In this document: piece after piece, positions 1 to 12,350 of the stretch
Position numbering within the stretch: position 1 is the stretch's first letter
How the letters are laid out: the number at the start of each line of letters is the position of its first letter
NCBI GenBank assembly: GCA_012974425.1
Contig: JAAXQE010000179.1
Location: 1-34,625, forward strand
DNA: 34,625 bases
Source: Geopsychrobacter sp.
GTDB taxonomy: Bacteria > Desulfobacterota > Desulfuromonadia > Desulfuromonadales > Geopsychrobacteraceae
Direction: 5' to 3'
Notes under the pieces: generated by a model
Seen by the model: only the letters and a program-made list of their open reading frames with translations
What the model was told of the DNA's origin: nothing
The model's database searches: none
Program-made: the position numbers and the translations under genes

Positions 1-415
1 TAGTATTGTCGCTCTCGGTATCATTTATTTGTACTTTCCTCCCTTGCCCAACGGATACGGATTGCCGGCGACCGGATATCAATTCAAAATTTGAATAATT
101 GCAGGAATTTTTTTTTGGCTATTTTTTAATCGAATTTGGATCGGTCGCGGCCTATACAAAATAACAGGAGGGGATTCATTTCATAAAAATACCGCTTGAG
201 CCCAGATCTTTCGACTGCTCCAAAACGGGTTCTCATCTCTTTAAATATCGCCCCTCAGTATGGTACATAAGGCTCCAAATTCATTTGAATAAGTTTCACT
301 TTACAGGTGCGCTAGGCAAATCGTCAAGGAGTTCGGTTGGTTATCTTTTGACGTTCTGTTCAGGCCTTGTTGAATGGGCCTGTTATTATACAGGGGGGCC
401 ATCAAGGAGGCGGTT
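1..415. other. Non-coding region upstream of threonine ammonia-lyase
   Basis: I find no credible gene in these 415 bases. The region is AT-rich, with a run of nine T at about 109-117 that could be the tail of a terminator for a gene outside the window, although no good stem precedes it. Two related AT-rich palindromes lie at 82-96 (ATTCAAA, A, TTTGAAT) and 279-290 (ATTCA, TT, TGAAT). A TTG-started frame at 285-485 runs into the ilvA gene in another frame and has no recognisable content, so I do not call it. Confidence 0.7.
361..389 (+). promoter_or_regulatory. Candidate extended -10 promoter and hairpin before ilvA
   Basis: TGTTATTAT at 381-389 matches an extended -10 element (TG, one base, TATTAT). 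It would start transcription near 396, about 20 bases before the ATG at 416. No convincing -35 lies at the right distance, which is normal for extended -10 promoters. A 6-bp inverted repeat, CAGGCC (361-366) and GGCCTG (377-382), overlaps the upstream part and could be an operator. This is motif matching only. Confidence 0.4.
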
Positions 416-2700: not shown

Positions 2701-3174
2701 ATGGTCCCCTCATCTGTCAGTAATGCCTGGAACGAGCTTCCGGAAAATAGAAAAGCCGCGGTTTGCCGCTTATGCGCCAAGCAACAACCGACAATTTTTT
2801 CGCGCTGGGTTGATGCTGCCGGGCTGAAAAGTTTCCGTCACGACTCGCTGGTCAACCGCAAGGTCGGCTCGGCGACGCGGCTGGATGCGGTGTTGTTTAA
2901 GGCCGAAGAGGGTCAGTTGGCGGCGGATGTGTTGGTCTCCTTCTTTACCGAACTGGCACCGGAGATCAATGACCAGTACCTCGCGCAGATCGAGGCGGCA
3001 GGTAACGAAGCGGCAGAAACCAAGCTGAAGATCTACGCGCAGCTCGCCAATACCCACCAGGAGTCGCCTTTTATCAGGCTCTATCTGGCTACGGCGCTCT
3101 GGGTAGAGGAATTTGCTGAAGAGGATATCGAGGTTGTTGACAGCCTGGCTGCGGAGCTTGCTTCGCCAGCCTAG
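2701..3174 (+). CDS. Hypothetical protein, 157 aa
   Basis: I do not recognise this protein. It has no signal peptide or membrane segment and looks mostly helical. The N-terminal part is basic and has two cysteines in CRLCAKQQ; the C-terminal third is acidic (WVEEFAEEDIEVVDSL) and ends in an alanine-rich tail. Residues about 85-130 alternate acidic and hydrophobic residues like a helical bundle. Base composition matches its neighbours, so nothing marks it as newly acquired. ATG 2701 follows the hairpin-loop AAGG described separately. The stop lies three bases from the convergent lon stop. It could be a small regulatory or adaptor protein, but no function is supported. Confidence 0.7.
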   Translation: MVPSSVSNAWNELPENRKAAVCRLCAKQQPTIFSRWVDAAGLKSFRHDSLVNRKVGSATRLDAVLFKAEEGQLAADVLVSFFTELAPEINDQYLAQIEAAGNEAAETKLKIYAQLANTHQESPFIRLYLATALWVEEFAEEDIEVVDSLAAELASPA

Positions 3175-5708: not shown

Positions 5709-6248
5709 TTATTCTTCCGTCGAAAACTGCAGGTCCTCCAGAGTCAGAATCGATTCAATATCCCGTCGTGCTGATTTATTGATGATGACCGCTGTACCGA
5801 TCAGGTTCGCCTCGGCCTGGGCAATCATCTCTTCCATCGCTTTTAAGGTCGCGCCCTTGGCGAAGAAATCATCGATAAAGAGGATTCGCTCTCCCGCGCT
5901 GAGCATCTCTTTGGCGACGTAGAAGCGGGTCGATTCCTGCTTGGTAAAGCTGAAGCTGTCGGCTGCGTAGTAGTCGGTCATGGTCAGCGGCTGCTTCTTC
6001 TTGGCGAAGACGTAGGGCACGCCGAGCATCCCGGCGACCGGTTGGGCGAGGATGATGCCGCTGGTCTCGGCGGTGAGCACCTTGTCGATGCCTTGCTCGA
6101 GAAAGCGGGTCGCAATATCGGCGGCGAGCAGGTCGATCAACTGCGGGTCGACCATGTGGTTCAGAAAGCGGTCGACCTTGATAATTTCACCATCGACCCG
6201 TCCGTCGCGTTTGATCCGTTCAAGCAGGGTTAGGGCGGCGTGATTCAT
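5709..6248 (-). CDS. xpt: Xanthine phosphoribosyltransferase
   Basis: This cytoplasmic salvage enzyme joins xanthine (possibly also guanine) to PRPP to make XMP. The 179-aa protein carries the PRPP-binding motif ILFIDDFFAKGAT (122-134) and the Xpt-type segments KVDRFLNHMVDP (24-35) and SFSFTKQ (98-104), which resemble the Gram-positive Xpt family rather than E. coli Gpt. Its ATG overlaps the TGA of the upstream permease by four bases, so it is the last gene of a five-gene nucleoside uptake operon. That context supports immediate phosphoribosylation of imported bases. Base specificity cannot be read from sequence with certainty. Confidence 0.9.
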   Translation of the reverse strand: MNHAALTLLERIKRDGRVDGEIIKVDRFLNHMVDPQLIDLLAADIATRFLEQGIDKVLTAETSGIILAQPVAGMLGVPYVFAKKKQPLTMTDYYAADSFSFTKQESTRFYVAKEMLSAGERILFIDDFFAKGATLKAMEEMIAQAEANLIGTAVIINKSARRDIESILTLEDLQFSTEE

Positions 6249-7165
6249 TTGCGGTCCTCGCGATCATAGGGCAGGCCGAGATTGCCGGGCTGCTGGCTGG
6301 CGCCTTTTTGCAAGCGCAGGGTGGAAATGACCAGCACGACAATGGTGAAGATGTAGGGGAGCATCTGCAGAATATGCACGCTGACGGTGGTGCCCATTGC
6401 CTGGAAACGTAACTGCATGGCGGTGACGCCGCCGAACAGGTAGGCGCCGCCCAGGGCGCGAAAGCTCGACCAACTGGCGAAGATGACCAGCGCCACGGCG
6501 ATCCAGCCGCGCCCGGCGGTCATATTCTCAATCCACATCGGCGTATAGACAAGGCTCAAGTAGGCGCCACCGATGCCGACGAATCCGCTGCCGCAGGCGA
6601 CGGCTAAAAAGCGGTAGAGATTGACCGGAATACCGCAGGCGTCGGCTGCGGTCGGGTTCTCGCCGACGGTGCGCAGGTTGAGTCCCCAGCGGCTGTGGTA
6701 GAGGAAGAACCAGATCGCTATGACCAGCAGGAAGCTGAAGTAGATCAGCCAGTCCTGGTTGAAGAAGGCCTTGCCGACCAGCGGCAGTTGCGCGAGCAGC
6801 GGCACCGCATGACGTTCGAAGCCCTCGATGGTTTGGCCGACCAGGCCGCGGCCGAAGAGGGCGGTTATGCCGACGCCGAATAGGGTCAGGGCGAGGCCAC
6901 TGACGATCTGGTTCCCGCGCAGTTGCACGCAGATCAGGGCGTGGATGCTGCCGGCGATAAAGGCGGCGACGAAGGCGGCGACTACCCCCAGAAAAAGGCT
7001 GCCGCTGGCGAAGGTCGCCGCGAAGCCGCTTAGGGCGCCGATCAGCATCAGCCCTTCGATCCCCAGGTTGATAATCCCGGCCCGTTCATTGATGATCGCG
7101 CCTAAGGTGGCGAACAGGATCGGCGTGCCGGCGCGCACTGTGGCATCGAGCAGAATCTCAAGCAT
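6245..7165 (-). CDS. Nucleoside ABC transporter permease, second subunit (NupQ/YufQ type)
   Basis: This 306-aa inner-membrane permease of the BPD_transp_2 family would pair with the permease encoded just upstream to import nucleosides or purine bases delivered by the BMP lipoprotein. The motif INERAGIINLGIEGLMLIGA near the N-terminus is typical of this subunit, and eight or nine hydrophobic segments follow. I start it at ATG 7165 (MLEILLDATVRAG) because AAGGAG lies seven bases upstream; the longer frame from 7213 has an Arg/Ser-rich leader unlike the family. The start overlaps the preceding permease stop by eight bases and the stop overlaps xpt by four, implying coupled translation. Confidence 0.9.
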   Translation of the reverse strand: MLEILLDATVRAGTPILFATLGAIINERAGIINLGIEGLMLIGALSGFAATFASGSLFLGVVAAFVAAFIAGSIHALICVQLRGNQIVSGLALTLFGVGITALFGRGLVGQTIEGFERHAVPLLAQLPLVGKAFFNQDWLIYFSFLLVIAIWFFLYHSRWGLNLRTVGENPTAADACGIPVNLYRFLAVACGSGFVGIGGAYLSLVYTPMWIENMTAGRGWIAVALVIFASWSSFRALGGAYLFGGVTAMQLRFQAMGTTVSVHILQMLPYIFTIVVLVISTLRLQKGASQQPGNLGLPYDREDRK

Positions 7166-8225
7166 CGTCCGTCTCCTTGACGCGGCGCAGGCGGAAGTTG
7201 ATAAAGAAGTCACTCGCCAGCAGGAAAAACAGAATCAGGCCCTGAAAGGCGTAGGCGAAAGCCACCGGTAGTTGCCAGGAGAGTTGCAGACTGTCGCCAC
7301 CGACCAGCAGAATCCCCATCAATAACGAGACGATGACCACCCCTAAAGCCGAGCGGCGCGCCAGCCAGGCGATGATGATTGCGGTATAGCCGTAGCCGGG
7401 CGAGATGCCATGCTGCAGGCGGTGTTGCAGACCGGCGACTTCACTGAACCCGGCGACACCGGCGATGGCGCCACTCAAGGCCAAGACCAAAAAGATCGCC
7501 AGACCGGTCTTCATCCCGGCGTAGCGTGCGGCGGCCGGATTGCTGCCGATCGCCTTGACCTGAAAGCCCCAGATGGTGCGCTCCATCAGCAGGTAGACGG
7601 CCAGCGCGCAGAACAGCGCGAGGAAGAAGCCGCTGTGCAGGCGGGTATTGAAATACTCGGTGAGGCGCGCCGCGTCGCTGAATTGAGCGGTCAGCGGAAA
7701 GTTGTAGCCGTCGGGGTTTTTCCAGGGGCCGAAGATCAGATAGTTGGTCAGCAGAATGGCAATGTAGTTCATCAGCAGGGTGACGATGACTTCGTTGACC
7801 TGCCAGAGTGCGCGCAGCAGGCCCGCGACCGCGGCCCAGAGACCACCCGCAATAAAGGCGGCGGCAAACATGGCGGGCAGCATCAGCGGGCTGTCGAGAC
7901 CGGAGAAGAGTGCCACCCCGGTTGCGCCACAGGCCCCCATGTAGATCTGGCCCTCGGCACCGATATTCCAGATCTGCATACGGAAGGCGATGGAGACCGC
8001 CAGGCCGGTGATGATCAGGGGGGTCGCCTTGACCAGGGTCTCCGACAGGCCGTAGCTGGAGCCGAGGGATTCCTTGAGTATCTCGAGATAGGCCGCGGCC
8101 GGATCGACCCCGGCGAAGAAGAGCAGGAAACCGGCGAAGAGCAGGGCGCAGAGCAGCGAGGCTGTGGTTGTCAGGCTACGGAAGAGCGCGGAGCCCTGCT
8201 CGCGTTTTTCGATGCGCAGGATCAT
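7158..8225 (-). CDS. Nucleoside ABC transporter permease, first subunit (NupP/YufP type)
   Basis: This 355-aa multi-spanning inner-membrane protein belongs to the BPD_transp_2 permease family. After a short basic N-terminus it has a membrane segment around residues 20-45. It then carries the family stretch QIWNIGAEGQIYMGACGA at about 84-101, and further helices to the C-terminal FFINFRLRRVKE. It should form the channel together with the next permease. The ATG overlaps the TGA of the ATPase gene as ATGA, tying expression to the operon. Nucleoside specificity is inferred from the BMP and Xpt neighbours; sugar permeases of the same fold are the alternative. Confidence 0.9.
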   Translation of the reverse strand: MILRIEKREQGSALFRSLTTTASLLCALLFAGFLLFFAGVDPAAAYLEILKESLGSSYGLSETLVKATPLIITGLAVSIAFRMQIWNIGAEGQIYMGACGATGVALFSGLDSPLMLPAMFAAAFIAGGLWAAVAGLLRALWQVNEVIVTLLMNYIAILLTNYLIFGPWKNPDGYNFPLTAQFSDAARLTEYFNTRLHSGFFLALFCALAVYLLMERTIWGFQVKAIGSNPAAARYAGMKTGLAIFLVLALSGAIAGVAGFSEVAGLQHRLQHGISPGYGYTAIIIAWLARRSALGVVIVSLLMGILLVGGDSLQLSWQLPVAFAYAFQGLILFFLLASDFFINFRLRRVKETDDA

Positions 8226-9730
8226 GCGGGCACCTCGCCACTCATCATCAGACCGATCTGCTCGCGACTGGCGGTTGCCGGGTCGACGTAGCCGACCAGT
8301 TGGCCCCGAAAGATCACGGCGATCCGATCGGAAATTTTGTAGAGTTCATCGAGGTCCTCAGAGATCAAAATGGTGCTCATACCATCCCCGGCGCCCTCGG
8401 CGATCACCTTGTGAACGTATTCGGCCGAGCCGATATCGAGGCCACGGGTCGGATAGAGTGCGACCAGCACCTGGGGGCGTTCGGAGAGCTCACGCGCGAT
8501 GATGACTTTTTGAATGTTGCCACCCGATAAGAGCCGCACCGGGCTGCCGCTGGGACCGGCCTTGATGGCGAACTGCTCGATCTTCTCCTGGGCGTTCTGC
8601 CGGATGGCGCGGCGGCTTTGAAAGAAACCATTGCGGAAGCGGGCAGAGCGGAAGCTTTTCAGGATCAGGTTCTCGTCGAGACTCAGGTCGGGGGCAATGC
8701 CGATCGCCTTGCGGTCTTCGGGGATATGCGCGATGCCGGCAATATAGCTGCTGCGCGCGCAGCTGCGGGTGATATCTGCTCCTGCGGCCAGCACCTTGCC
8801 ACTGTCGACCCGGGCCAGCCCGGTCAGGGCTTCGGCCAGCGCTTTCTGGCCGTTGCCGGCGATACCGGCGATGCCGAGAATCTCGCCCTTTTTGAGCTGC
8901 AGGCTGAAGTTGTCGAGATCGGCCAGACCACGATCATTGCGCACCGCGAGATTTTCGATTTCAAGCACCAGCTCATCGCTGAAGGGGAGTGACTTCTGCC
9001 ATTCGGGGATGCGATCGTTGCCGATCATCAGCGCCGCGAGGCGATTCTGGTCGAATTCACCAGACTCCAGGGTCGTAACGCTGCGACCTTTTTTGAGGAT
9101 GGTCACCCGGTCCGAGATCTCCATCACCTCGCGCATCTTGTGCGAAATGAAGATGATGCTCTTGCCCTGCTGCTTGAGTTTGGCGAGGACCTTGAAGAGC
9201 TTTGCCGCTTCCTGAGGGGTGAGAACCGCAGTCGGCTCGTCGAGAATCAGTAGACGACAGTCGCGCATCAGCAGCTTGATCAGTTCGATCCATTGCTGGG
9301 CACCGATCGAGAGTTTCCAGACCGGTGAGTCGAGGTCGAGCTCGAGACCAAAGTCGGCGATGGTTTGCGCGATCTTCTCGCGCAGTTGACGGCGTGGAAA
9401 GAGCAGCGGGACATTCTGCAGGGCCACCAGGATATTCTCAAGCACGCTGTGGGCGGGGACCAGCATGAAATGCTGATAGACCATGCCGATCCCCTGTGAG
9501 AGGGATTCACGTGGCGAGGCGAAGCGCACCGGTTGGTCATCGAGCAGGATGTTGCCCTGATCAGGCGCGTAGAAACCGGTCAGCACGTTCATCAGGGTAC
9601 TCTTGCCCGCGCCGTTTTCACCGAGCAGGGTATGGATCTCCCCTGCCGCGATAGTGAAGGAAACCTCATCGAGTGCCACCACGCCGGGGAAGGTTTTACG
9701 GATATGCTGCAGCTGAAGGAGGTTGGGCAT
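8222..9730 (-). CDS. Nucleoside ABC transporter ATP-binding protein with two NBDs (NupO/YufO type)
   Basis: This 502-aa cytoplasmic ATPase powers the two permeases. It is a tandem of two nucleotide-binding domains, like RbsA and MglA. Domain 1 has Walker A GENGAGKST (37-45), a degenerate signature LSIGAQQ and Walker B with D-loop LLILDEPTAVLTP. Domain 2 has a degenerate Walker A (GIAGNGQKAL), signature LSGGN and PTRGLD, where the usual Walker B Asp/Glu pair is replaced. That asymmetry is normal for this family, with one competent site. It follows the BMP gene after a 130-base gap containing a terminator, so it is probably expressed below the binding protein. Confidence 0.92.
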   Translation of the reverse strand: MPNLLQLQHIRKTFPGVVALDEVSFTIAAGEIHTLLGENGAGKSTLMNVLTGFYAPDQGNILLDDQPVRFASPRESLSQGIGMVYQHFMLVPAHSVLENILVALQNVPLLFPRRQLREKIAQTIADFGLELDLDSPVWKLSIGAQQWIELIKLLMRDCRLLILDEPTAVLTPQEAAKLFKVLAKLKQQGKSIIFISHKMREVMEISDRVTILKKGRSVTTLESGEFDQNRLAALMIGNDRIPEWQKSLPFSDELVLEIENLAVRNDRGLADLDNFSLQLKKGEILGIAGIAGNGQKALAEALTGLARVDSGKVLAAGADITRSCARSSYIAGIAHIPEDRKAIGIAPDLSLDENLILKSFRSARFRNGFFQSRRAIRQNAQEKIEQFAIKAGPSGSPVRLLSGGNIQKVIIARELSERPQVLVALYPTRGLDIGSAEYVHKVIAEGAGDGMSTILISEDLDELYKISDRIAVIFRGQLVGYVDPATASREQIGLMMSGEVPA

Positions 9731-9804
9731 AGTGTCCAGTTATTTGTGAAATGCTCACGCGAAACAGGCTGAACTGGGGAAATATGTCTGTTTGACGCCG
9801 GGAA

Positions 9805-9842
9805 TAAAAAAGGCACGCATCACAAAAATGGCGATGCGTGCC
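9805..9842 (-). terminator. Intercistronic terminator between bmp and the ABC ATPase gene
   Basis: Plus-strand arms GGCACGCATC (9812-9821) and GATGCGTGCC (9833-9842) pair over ten bases. On the minus strand the hairpin is followed by TTTTTTA. It follows the bmp stop at 9861 and precedes the ATPase start at 9730. The likely effect is partial termination, giving excess binding protein over membrane components. Confidence 0.8.
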
Positions 9843-9860
9843 CTGGGAGCTCTATTGGGT

Positions 9861-10961
9861 TTACTTGGGGATAGTCCCCTGCACGCCTTCGACAAACCAG
9901 TTCATACCGAGGAGTGCGCCGTCGTCGAGGGTGACGCCAGCGGCGACGGTCTCCTTGCCGGTCTGGTCCTTGAGTGGGCCACTGAAGGGGTGCAGGCTGC
10001 CGGCGACGATCGCCTTGCGTTTCTCTTCAACCAGTTGCCGAACCGCAGTTGGCACCCTGTCGCTTAGGGGCGCAAGCTGAACCAGCTCTTCCTTCATCCC
10101 CCACCAGATCTGAGAGGTTTTCCAGGTGCCGTTTTGGACCTCTGCGGCCGTCTTGGTGTAGATCGAGGCCCAATTCCAGATCGGTGCGGTCAAGAAGGCA
10201 TTGGGGGCAAATTTGCGCGTATCGCTGTTGTAGCCGATCACGTAGGCACCGCGTGCTTCGGCGGCCTGCAGGGTGGCCGGAGCATCCTGGTGCATGGTGA
10301 GAACATCGGCACCGACGTCGAGCAGACTGTCGGCGGCGTCACGCTCGATGCCTGGATCGAACCAGGTCTGGGTCCAGACGACTTTGACCTTGGCCTGGGG
10401 GTTGACGCTGCGCACACCCAGGGTGAAGGCGTTGATGCCACGGATAACCTCGGGGATCGGGAAGGCGGCAACGTAGCCGATGCTGTTGGTTTTGGTCATT
10501 TTGCCGGCGATAATCCCCGAAAGGTAGCGCGGCTCATACATGCGACCGAAGTAGGTGCCGACATTTTCGGCCGACTTGTAGCCGGAGCAGTGCATGAAGA
10601 CGACATCTTTATTTTTGGAGGCGACATCCAGGGTCGCATCCATGTAGCCGAAGCTGGTGGTGAAGATCAGGTTGTGGCCTTTTTGGACCAGTCCGTTGAT
10701 GACCCGCGCCGATTCGGCACCTTCCGGGACCGATTCGATGAAGGTCGAAGGGGTCACGTAGTCGGCCTTTTCCATGGCGACCCGGCCCTGATCATGTGAC
10801 CAGGTCCAGCCGGCGTCGCCAACCGGACCAACATAGACGAAGCCAGCTTTGATCTGTTTGGCGCCAGAGGCCTCAGCAGCCGGTTCGGTTGGTTTTTGAT
10901 CGTTGGAGGTACAGGCCGTCAGCAGTGCGAGTATTGCCAGGGCGGCACAAAACTTTTTCAT
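9861..10961 (-). CDS. BMP-family nucleoside-binding lipoprotein
   Basis: This is the substrate-binding component of the ABC importer. It belongs to the BMP/Med/PnrA family, whose members bind purine nucleosides at the outer face of the inner membrane. From ATG 10961 the protein is 366 aa with a lipoprotein signal: a basic start (MKKF), a hydrophobic run and the lipobox LTAC (Cys17), followed by a flexible linker. The body begins KAGFVYVGPVGDAGWTWSHDQG, read in two parts, a typical BMP start. AAAGG lies eight bases upstream of ATG 10961; an in-frame GTG three codons earlier is less likely. It is the first gene of the operon behind a good promoter. The exact ligand (inosine, guanosine, adenosine) is not determined. 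Confidence 0.92.
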   Translation of the reverse strand: MKKFCAALAILALLTACTSNDQKPTEPAAEASGAKQIKAGFVYVGPVGDAGWTWSHDQGRVAMEKADYVTPSTFIESVPEGAESARVINGLVQKGHNLIFTTSFGYMDATLDVASKNKDVVFMHCSGYKSAENVGTYFGRMYEPRYLSGIIAGKMTKTNSIGYVAAFPIPEVIRGINAFTLGVRSVNPQAKVKVVWTQTWFDPGIERDAADSLLDVGADVLTMHQDAPATLQAAEARGAYVIGYNSDTRKFAPNAFLTAPIWNWASIYTKTAAEVQNGTWKTSQIWWGMKEELVQLAPLSDRVPTAVRQLVEEKRKAIVAGSLHPFSGPLKDQTGKETVAAGVTLDDGALLGMNWFVEGVQGTIPK

Positions 10962-11010
10962 CGGGTTCACCTTTCGTTTGATGACATGGAATTTAATTGA
11001 AGAAACAACT

Positions 11011-11040
11011 CTTGTAGTGCAGAAGCTCTTCTGCTGTCAA
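11011..11040 (-). promoter_or_regulatory. Promoter of the nucleoside operon with palindromic operator in the spacer
   Basis: On the minus strand a consensus -35 TTGACA (11040-11035) is followed 18 bases later by TACAAG (11016-11011; four of six matches to the -10). The spacer is filled by a 16-base inverted repeat at 11019-11034 with seven-base arms GCAGAAG and CTTCTGC around two central bases. A protein bound there would block RNA polymerase. No regulator gene is adjacent. Confidence 0.55.
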
Positions 11041-11045
11041 GCAGA

Positions 11046-12350
11046 TCACTCGGCCTGCAGTTTACTGGTGATATTGTTCCTGAGCCAACTGGCATCCCAC
11101 CATTCGAGGGGTTGCACCGGGACCCCTGAAATAAATACGCCGAGGTGCAGATGATCGCCGCCAGCCATACCGGTGGCCCCGGAGCGTCCAAGCGGCTGGT
11201 TGCGGCTGATCTGATCGCCGACGCTGACGTCAAGCTGGCTCATATGGGCGTAAAGGGTCTGCAGACCCAGGCCGTGGTCGATGACCACGCATTGGCCATA
11301 GATGCCGAGGTAGTCGGCAAAGACCACCTCGCCGGCATTGGCGGCAATGATTTCGGCGCGCGCGACCGAGGCCAGATCGAGGCCGAGGTGGGTCGCACGA
11401 TCGACCTTCTTCCCTTTGTACATGTAGTCACGCGTATCGGCAAAAATCGCCAGGGTCGATGCGCCGGGCTGGCGGATGAAGGCGCCTTCCCACAGCGGCA
11501 GGGGGGCCGTTTGGCGTGAAATCTCGACCATTTTTTGGCGGTTGGCGGCCCGCACATCCCCATTGACCTTGAGGAAGATGTCGAGTGGATCGCTCAGACC
11601 AGGGGCCAGGGCTTCAAACTCGGGGGCTTTCTGCTGCAGAAAGCTGTCGGACAGCTGGATCTGGCGCTGTCGGAATTTACGTTTAATCGTGTTGAAATAA
11701 ATACCGGCCTGCCGCTCATTTCCGGCTAGATCGCGTGCGGTGACGCGCGGCACAAAATCGGCTTCCTCCAGGTTCCATGGCCAGCTGCCGAGCACAATAT
11801 AATCCCCCGAATCCTGCTTGAAACCAGGGAAGAAGTGCTCACCGACTATCAGTCCGGAGGCTTCGACCTCTTCGTTCAACTGGTAACGCACTAGCCCGCC
11901 ACCGCCATGCCGGAAATAATGGGTGCGGCTCAAAACGGAAATGATCGGGGGGCGACTGTCGTAGGTCAGGTCGAAGCTGACCTTGGCGCTGTTCCCCTTG
12001 CCCAGATGGTAGATCGCACGGTCGCCACTGGTGACCTCGATGCTCAGTGGCCCTTCGCTCAGTTTTTTATCGGCAAGTAGCAGATCTAGTTGGGCGAGCA
12101 GGGTTTGGGGCGGAAATTCCCGGGTCAGCAGGACCTGGCGTTTCTCGCCCTGCACGGCTTCGACCGTCACCGTTTTCAGCCCGGTGCCCTCATCGCTCAG
12201 ATCGAGGGCCAGGATGGTTTTATGCGAGATCGGGCCCGATCCGGGGGTCAACCTTGCGAGGGGGGCGCTGGTGTCACGGAAATAGGTGAAGGCGGCCGCG
12301 ATCAGGCCGACGATGATGAGCAGGAGTAGCAGTTTCTTTAGTGATTTCAA
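11046..12350 (-). CDS. M23-family (LytM) zinc metallopeptidase, membrane-anchored
   Basis: A probable cell-wall hydrolase or hydrolase-like protein in the periplasm. One N-terminal transmembrane segment (about residues 6-22) anchors the 434-aa protein. A long beta-rich region (about 40-225) resembling an Ig-like module precedes the C-terminal peptidase domain. All zinc and catalytic positions expected of active LytM are present: H321 and D325 in HLGLD, H369 in LYAHM, and H400/H402 in HLH. It should therefore cleave peptidoglycan cross-links, unlike the degenerate EnvC type. Translation begins at TTG (12350) with GAGGT upstream; no better start exists in frame. It lies between lpd, behind a strong hairpin, and the nucleoside operon promoter, so it is probably its own transcript. 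Confidence 0.9.
   Translation of the reverse strand: MKSLKKLLLLLIIVGLIAAAFTYFRDTSAPLARLTPGSGPISHKTILALDLSDEGTGLKTVTVEAVQGEKRQVLLTREFPPQTLLAQLDLLLADKKLSEGPLSIEVTSGDRAIYHLGKGNSAKVSFDLTYDSRPPIISVLSRTHYFRHGGGGLVRYQLNEEVEASGLIVGEHFFPGFKQDSGDYIVLGSWPWNLEEADFVPRVTARDLAGNERQAGIYFNTIKRKFRQRQIQLSDSFLQQKAPEFEALAPGLSDPLDIFLKVNGDVRAANRQKMVEISRQTAPLPLWEGAFIRQPGASTLAIFADTRDYMYKGKKVDRATHLGLDLASVARAEIIAANAGEVVFADYLGIYGQCVVIDHGLGLQTLYAHMSQLDVSVGDQISRNQPLGRSGATGMAGGDHLHLGVFISGVPVQPLEWWDASWLRNNITSKLQAE

Follow-up and report, generated by a model that had tools for sequence, protein, structure and literature searches.

A perfect palindrome in the conserved promoter of a putative purine-base importer operon of Geopsychrobacter sp. 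probably arose by mutation within one lineage

Between the -35 and -10 elements of the predicted promoter of a bmp-family operon in Geopsychrobacter sp. lies a perfect 7+2+7 inverted repeat, GCAGAAG-N2-CTTCTGC. Such a repeat within a promoter spacer raises the question of whether it is the operator of a repressor or has some other origin. We examined it within the stretch of 34,625 nucleotides on which it lies (hereafter the window) and in related genomes. The coordinates and letters of the original prediction (11011-11040, TTGACA, 18-bp spacing, 7+2+7 repeat) are correct when the minus strand is read directly (Table 1).

The promoter and the operon downstream

TTGACA starts 5 bases past the stop codon of the upstream M23 peptidase gene. 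On the other side, TACAAG is followed by a leader of about 50 bases, the ribosome-binding-site-like sequence GAAAGGTG and the bmp ATG. TACAAG matches TATAAT at four of six positions and has no final T, which is why a stricter promoter scan of 10400-11600 listed nothing at the TTGACA/TACAAG site.

The genes from 5709 to 10961, which their layout suggests form one transcript, encode a substrate-binding protein, an ATPase, two permeases and, as the last gene of the run, a protein resembling xanthine phosphoribosyltransferase. Among PDB chains, the Bmp protein matched 6pi5 (AtzT) with 398 bits over residues 35-366 and 3s99, a Brucella protein, with 361 bits; other matched chains reached at most 82 bits. 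The transporter proteins also match NCBIfam models named 'putative B6 ABC transporter', with scores below the cut-off. AtzT, as its published account states, was found with guanine bound and has a KD of about 110 nM for it, and eight residues are named there for its ligand site and hydrogen-bond network (PMC6834077). Mapped by hand with a numbering offset of 5, four of the residues so named are kept in the window protein (Ser97, Phe98, Glu165, and Trp194) and four are changed (Tyr45 to Trp, Asn169 to Gly, Asn218 to His, and Asn220 to Asp); the His and Asp at the last two positions are shared with 3s99. Because the nearest solved relatives are guanine-bound AtzT and 3s99, and because the Xpt-like gene ends the run, the best label for this operon appears to be import and salvage of some purine base, which should probably replace the original name, 'nucleoside operon'. 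Among the literature titles seen on this group and its purine control, we recognised none as describing this promoter.

Table 1. Features of the bmp promoter and the adjoining genes; positions are those of the window.
Feature	Coordinates	Strand	Evidence and remarks
-35 element TTGACA	11035..11040	-	sequence; invariant in 8/8 aligned genus members including the window; part of the strict promoter at 24/54 other bmp loci
Promoter spacer	11017..11034	-	18 bp in the window; 17 bp in the 7 other aligned genus members
Perfect inverted repeat 7+2+7	11019..11034	.	single place in own genome; at bmp in none of the other genomes of the 44-genome family set
Arm adjoining -35, reads GCAGAAG	11028..11034	-	derived arm; CAGAAG replaces GGAAA of three close relatives (alignment and template-switch check)
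Arm adjoining -10, reads CTTCTGC	11019..11025	-	common to G020, G022, G023, and G024 (alignment); proposed template
-10 element TACAAG	11011..11016	-	sequence; TANAA form in 8/8 genus members including the window
GAAAGGTG, ribosome-binding-site-like	10968..10975	-	GAAAGGT invariant in 8/8 genus members (alignment)
bmp-family (AtzT-like) substrate-binding protein gene	9861..10961, ATG 10961	-	Pfam Bmp, 213 bits; nearest PDB chains 6pi5 and 3s99
ABC transporter ATPase	8222..9730	-	Pfam ABC_tran
ABC transporter permease	7158..8225	-	Pfam BPD_transp_2
ABC transporter permease	6245..7213	-	Pfam BPD_transp_2
Xanthine-phosphoribosyltransferase-like gene	5709..6248	-	best NCBIfam models below cut-offs; 108 bits to 1y0b
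Upstream M23 peptidase gene	11046..12350	-	5 bases between its stop codon and -35

Distribution of the promoter and of the palindrome

A Bmp protein was matched in 39 of the 44 family genomes, our own included, and a separate scan of GTDB genomes yielded 80 bmp loci. We examined the upstream regions of 54 other loci; 26 distant ones (L084, L086-L091, and L093-L111) were left out of the upstream counts, and the paralogous or extra loci L112-L126 enter no count. The ninth genome of the genus, G018, has no bmp match and is absent from the alignment of eight genus members. An exact TTGACA-16..19-TANAA arrangement was present upstream of bmp at 24 of the 54 other loci, the window not counted, as against 0.14% of letter shuffles, and its spacer measured 17 bp in all but one of these 24. 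The strict form was missing from 30 loci. Four of them (L058, L063, L070, and L073) carry TTGACA with TAAATA or TAAACA at 17-18 bp, and the remaining 26 have neither form; a looser scan of those 26 found other candidate pairs at some (e.g., L044, L071, L075, and L078-L080) and none at others. Within the genus alignment, TTGACAG and TANAA are kept in all eight members, the window included.

The promoter consensus of sigma-70 is TTGACA, 17 bp and TATAAT. The bmp promoters share with it the exact -35, a -10 of TANAA form and, in 23 of the 24 other strict loci, the 17-bp spacer; the window differs from it in its 18-bp spacer and its imperfect -10. Conservation among relatives thus upholds the promoter call: with hexamers conserved at orthologs, 11011-11040 looks like a real sigma-70-type promoter, and RNA polymerase would read TTGACA and TANAA as a sigma-70-like signal of the housekeeping type. 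This promoter form, common to bmp operons in several Desulfuromonadales genera, is a better-supported object than the candidate operator. Another group of bmp loci (L046, L048, L050, L052, L053, L057, and L059), two of them labelled Geobacteraceae, has a different promoter pattern, TTGACA-N17-TAGAA(G/A) with a GGGTTTTGAGT-like stretch in front of it.

The palindrome does not share this distribution. It is missing from all seven other aligned genus members and from the spacers of all 24 other strict promoters, six of which belong to the same genus relatives. The longest arm in those 24 spacers averages 2.71 bp, compared with 2.59 in shuffles, and the largest outside the window has 5 bp (L046, shuffle P 0.034). 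The exact pattern was found in two of the 44 family genomes, namely at the bmp site of the window and at one place inside an open frame of G036, so that at bmp the dyad is known from one genome, the window's own. That genome holds no second copy of the exact sequence, and a genome-wide repeat element can be ruled out on this ground. Allowing at most two mismatches, we counted 34 places in the own genome, including the window site, versus 15 for a reversed-pattern control. The other 33 comprise 28 inside open frames of at least 100 codons and five outside, and the predominance of open frames in this excess points to codon composition. The seven scanned genes adjoining the five outside places encode, according to Pfam, an amino-acid-type binding protein, a permease, a multicopper-oxidase-domain protein, an IS200-like transposase, a radical-SAM molybdenum-cofactor protein, a cNMP-binding-domain protein and one unmatched product; none is recognisably purine-related. 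Two places deviate by a single mismatch, one in an open frame (L129) whose translation looks kinase-like by eye and one between amino-acid-type transporter genes (L130/L170). On L170, two near-copies of the dyad stand 10 bases apart at 1175-1216, in the gap between the genes for an amino-acid-type binding protein and a permease.

Short-loop dyads of this size are common as such, and filling a promoter spacer with one is rarer. Inverted repeats with an arm of at least 7 and a loop of 0-8 number 37 in the window, against 23.2 +/- 5.0 in 15 dinucleotide shuffles; four of those in the window have a loop of exactly 2, where shuffles have 2.8. About 6% of shuffles of the 84-bp intergenic stretch contain a short-loop repeat with an arm of at least 7, and when the letters of the 18-bp spacer were shuffled 500 times, no arm reached 7.

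This rare placement, together with the purine-related genes downstream and a promoter region, spacer included, that is more conserved than its flanks among three relatives, speaks for the palindrome as the operator of a purine-responsive repressor that would block RNA polymerase between -35 and -10. A dyad near a purine transport operon is a feature shared with operators of PurR and other purine repressors. However, this site differs from those operators in two ways: the dyad is not conserved at orthologs, and no regulon-like second site was found among the five near-matches outside open frames in the own genome, none of which lies near a recognisable purine gene. Moreover, Pfam identified no regulator among the scanned neighbouring genes, with 2701-3174 unmatched. 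The original prediction had linked a repressor operator to conservation of the palindrome upstream of orthologous operons, and seven genus relatives, 24 spacers and 44 family genomes gave the opposite outcome. Since no bmp ortholog examined carries the palindrome, the operator reading is not supported, and we regard it as improbable. A still slimmer chance attaches to a role in RNA, in which the repeat would form a hairpin that terminates the upstream M23 transcript or attenuates the operon. The arms are capable of pairing and lie just past the M23 stop codon, but no T run follows the repeat, and a terminator scan was empty there. Fold z-scores came to -0.18 and 0.44; in the minimum-energy folds predicted for the region, the two arms are not paired with each other. 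Folding and the missing T run led us to reject a terminator or attenuator hairpin. Nor did Rfam match any family in the window at gathering scores or in 10940-11120 at E<=1, which also counts against the hairpin; a known structured RNA or riboswitch was rejected on this basis, and the predicted lack of a purine riboswitch was borne out as far as known families go.

Probable origin of the palindrome on one branch

On the evidence of the aligned spacers, a mutation specific to this lineage explains the palindrome better than an inherited operator does. G022, G023, and G024 surround the window on the tree and share the identical spacer GGGAAAAGCTTCTGCAC, whereas the window has GCAGAAGAGCTTCTGCAC. 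The two differ by one inserted C, a G-to-A and an A-to-G change, all within 7 bp. Taken together, these changes replace GGAAA with CAGAAG, the exact reverse complement of the CTTCTG that follows 2 nt downstream, so that copying this neighbouring stretch once in reverse complement would account for the whole cluster. The tree built from the flanks, (G024,(window,(G022,G023))), gives support of 98/97 to the group of four and 91/95 to the group of three, and a tree that groups the three relatives together was not rejected (p-AU 0.053). Among the eight aligned sequences the inserted C and the A-to-G change are private to the window, and the G-to-A step hangs on the fork with 91/95 support.

We therefore consider it likely, though by no means certain, that the site is the conserved promoter of a purine-base importer operon whose palindrome arose by mutation on the window's own branch, plausibly through one template switch, and was not inherited as an operator. 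On this branch GGGAAA, which forms the left half of a 17-bp spacer, would have become GCAGAAG; a single switch of template during replication plausibly copied CTTCTG from 2 nt downstream. The change would have lengthened the spacer to 18 bp and may slightly alter promoter strength. PMC8794818 describes how a template switch can create a perfect hairpin in a single event, and PMC7202029 is a further paper on template-switch mutations. The present case resembles the quasipalindrome mutations outlined in these papers in that a cluster of changes copies the neighbouring reverse complement and yields a perfect inverted repeat in one step. It is unlike the cases they present in being deduced from one lineage and one locus, and in concerning a promoter and not an RNA gene (PMC8794818; PMC7202029).

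Independent point changes and one insertion, without any template switch, could also have produced a dyad that is no operator. This account overlaps with the preferred one, from which it differs in the origin step only, and it draws on the abundance of short-loop repeats with arms of at least 7, both in the window and in shuffles of the intergenic stretch. However, the three changes fall within 7 bp and match one reverse-complement copy. When we simulated clusters of the same make-up that spanned 6 bp or more, 233 of 107268 (0.2%) could be explained by a single local copy of no fewer than 6 nt; with a G020-like ancestor, which requires one substitution fewer and a span of at least 5, 897 of 71615 (1.3%) were explained by a copy. 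In 0.4% of trials, independent changes yielded a 7-bp arm. These simulated odds overstate the case for a template switch, since it was its palindromic form that drew attention to the site. An unfiltered explained-by-copy rate of 10%, which counted copies down to 3 nt, is superseded by the filtered simulation. Origin by independent changes is thus possible and, in our judgement, clearly the less probable of the two routes.

For further work, these results remove one candidate purine operator. They also carry a warning: a perfect dyad found in a promoter spacer may have arisen recently as a by-product of mutation, and a look at the orthologs should precede any proposal of an operator.

Probable constraint on the spacer beyond the hexamers

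Between G022 and G024, none of the 46 promoter columns differs, compared with 16.6% of the flank columns, the flanks being almost wholly coding; between G022 and the window, four of the 46 promoter columns and 15.9% of the flank columns differ, and three of the four are the spacer cluster. The three relatives (L032, L033, and L037) do not differ from one another at any of the 46 columns of the bmp promoter region, which corresponds to 11002-11047, and their flanks differ by 6-17%. Promoter columns so much more conserved than their flanks suggest that constraint may reach further than the two hexamers. It is likely, on these alignments, that some constraint acts on the spacer of the relatives and that the window has departed from it.

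Control might accordingly be sought in the region but outside the palindrome, with a regulator or a polymerase preference using the non-palindromic stretch upstream of -10 (CTGNNCTA or GGGAAAAGCTTCTGCAC). The lack of any difference over 46 columns among G022, G023, and G024 fits this proposal, as does the recurrence of CTGNNCTA before -10 at bmp in several genera: TTGACA-N11,12-CTGNNCTA occurs at 72 places in the 44 genomes, 13 of them bmp promoters, versus 29 for the reversed control. Yet the spacer is not the same in other groups of bmp loci, and the genes downstream of the two other TTGACA-N12-CTGNNCTA places of the own genome are an alpha/beta-hydrolase gene and an Rnf-Nqr gene, neither of them a purine gene. 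The occurrence of CTGNNCTA at non-purine genes makes it look like a general promoter preference, and we consider specific control through this stretch unlikely. Because the promoter region is so unusually conserved among the relatives, we also weighed a newborn operator: one template switch in the ancestor of the species would have turned a constrained, non-palindromic spacer into a dyad, creating a new candidate repressor site along with the 18-bp spacer. If true, an operator would have been caught at birth, but we hold this to be very improbable, and a recent mutation without operator function remains our preferred reading of the palindrome.

A regulon built on the CTGNNCTA element was rejected on account of the genes that follow its other places in the own genome. 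These places are L201 1201-1226 and L202 1026-1051, and the alpha/beta-hydrolase gene appears MetX-like by eye.
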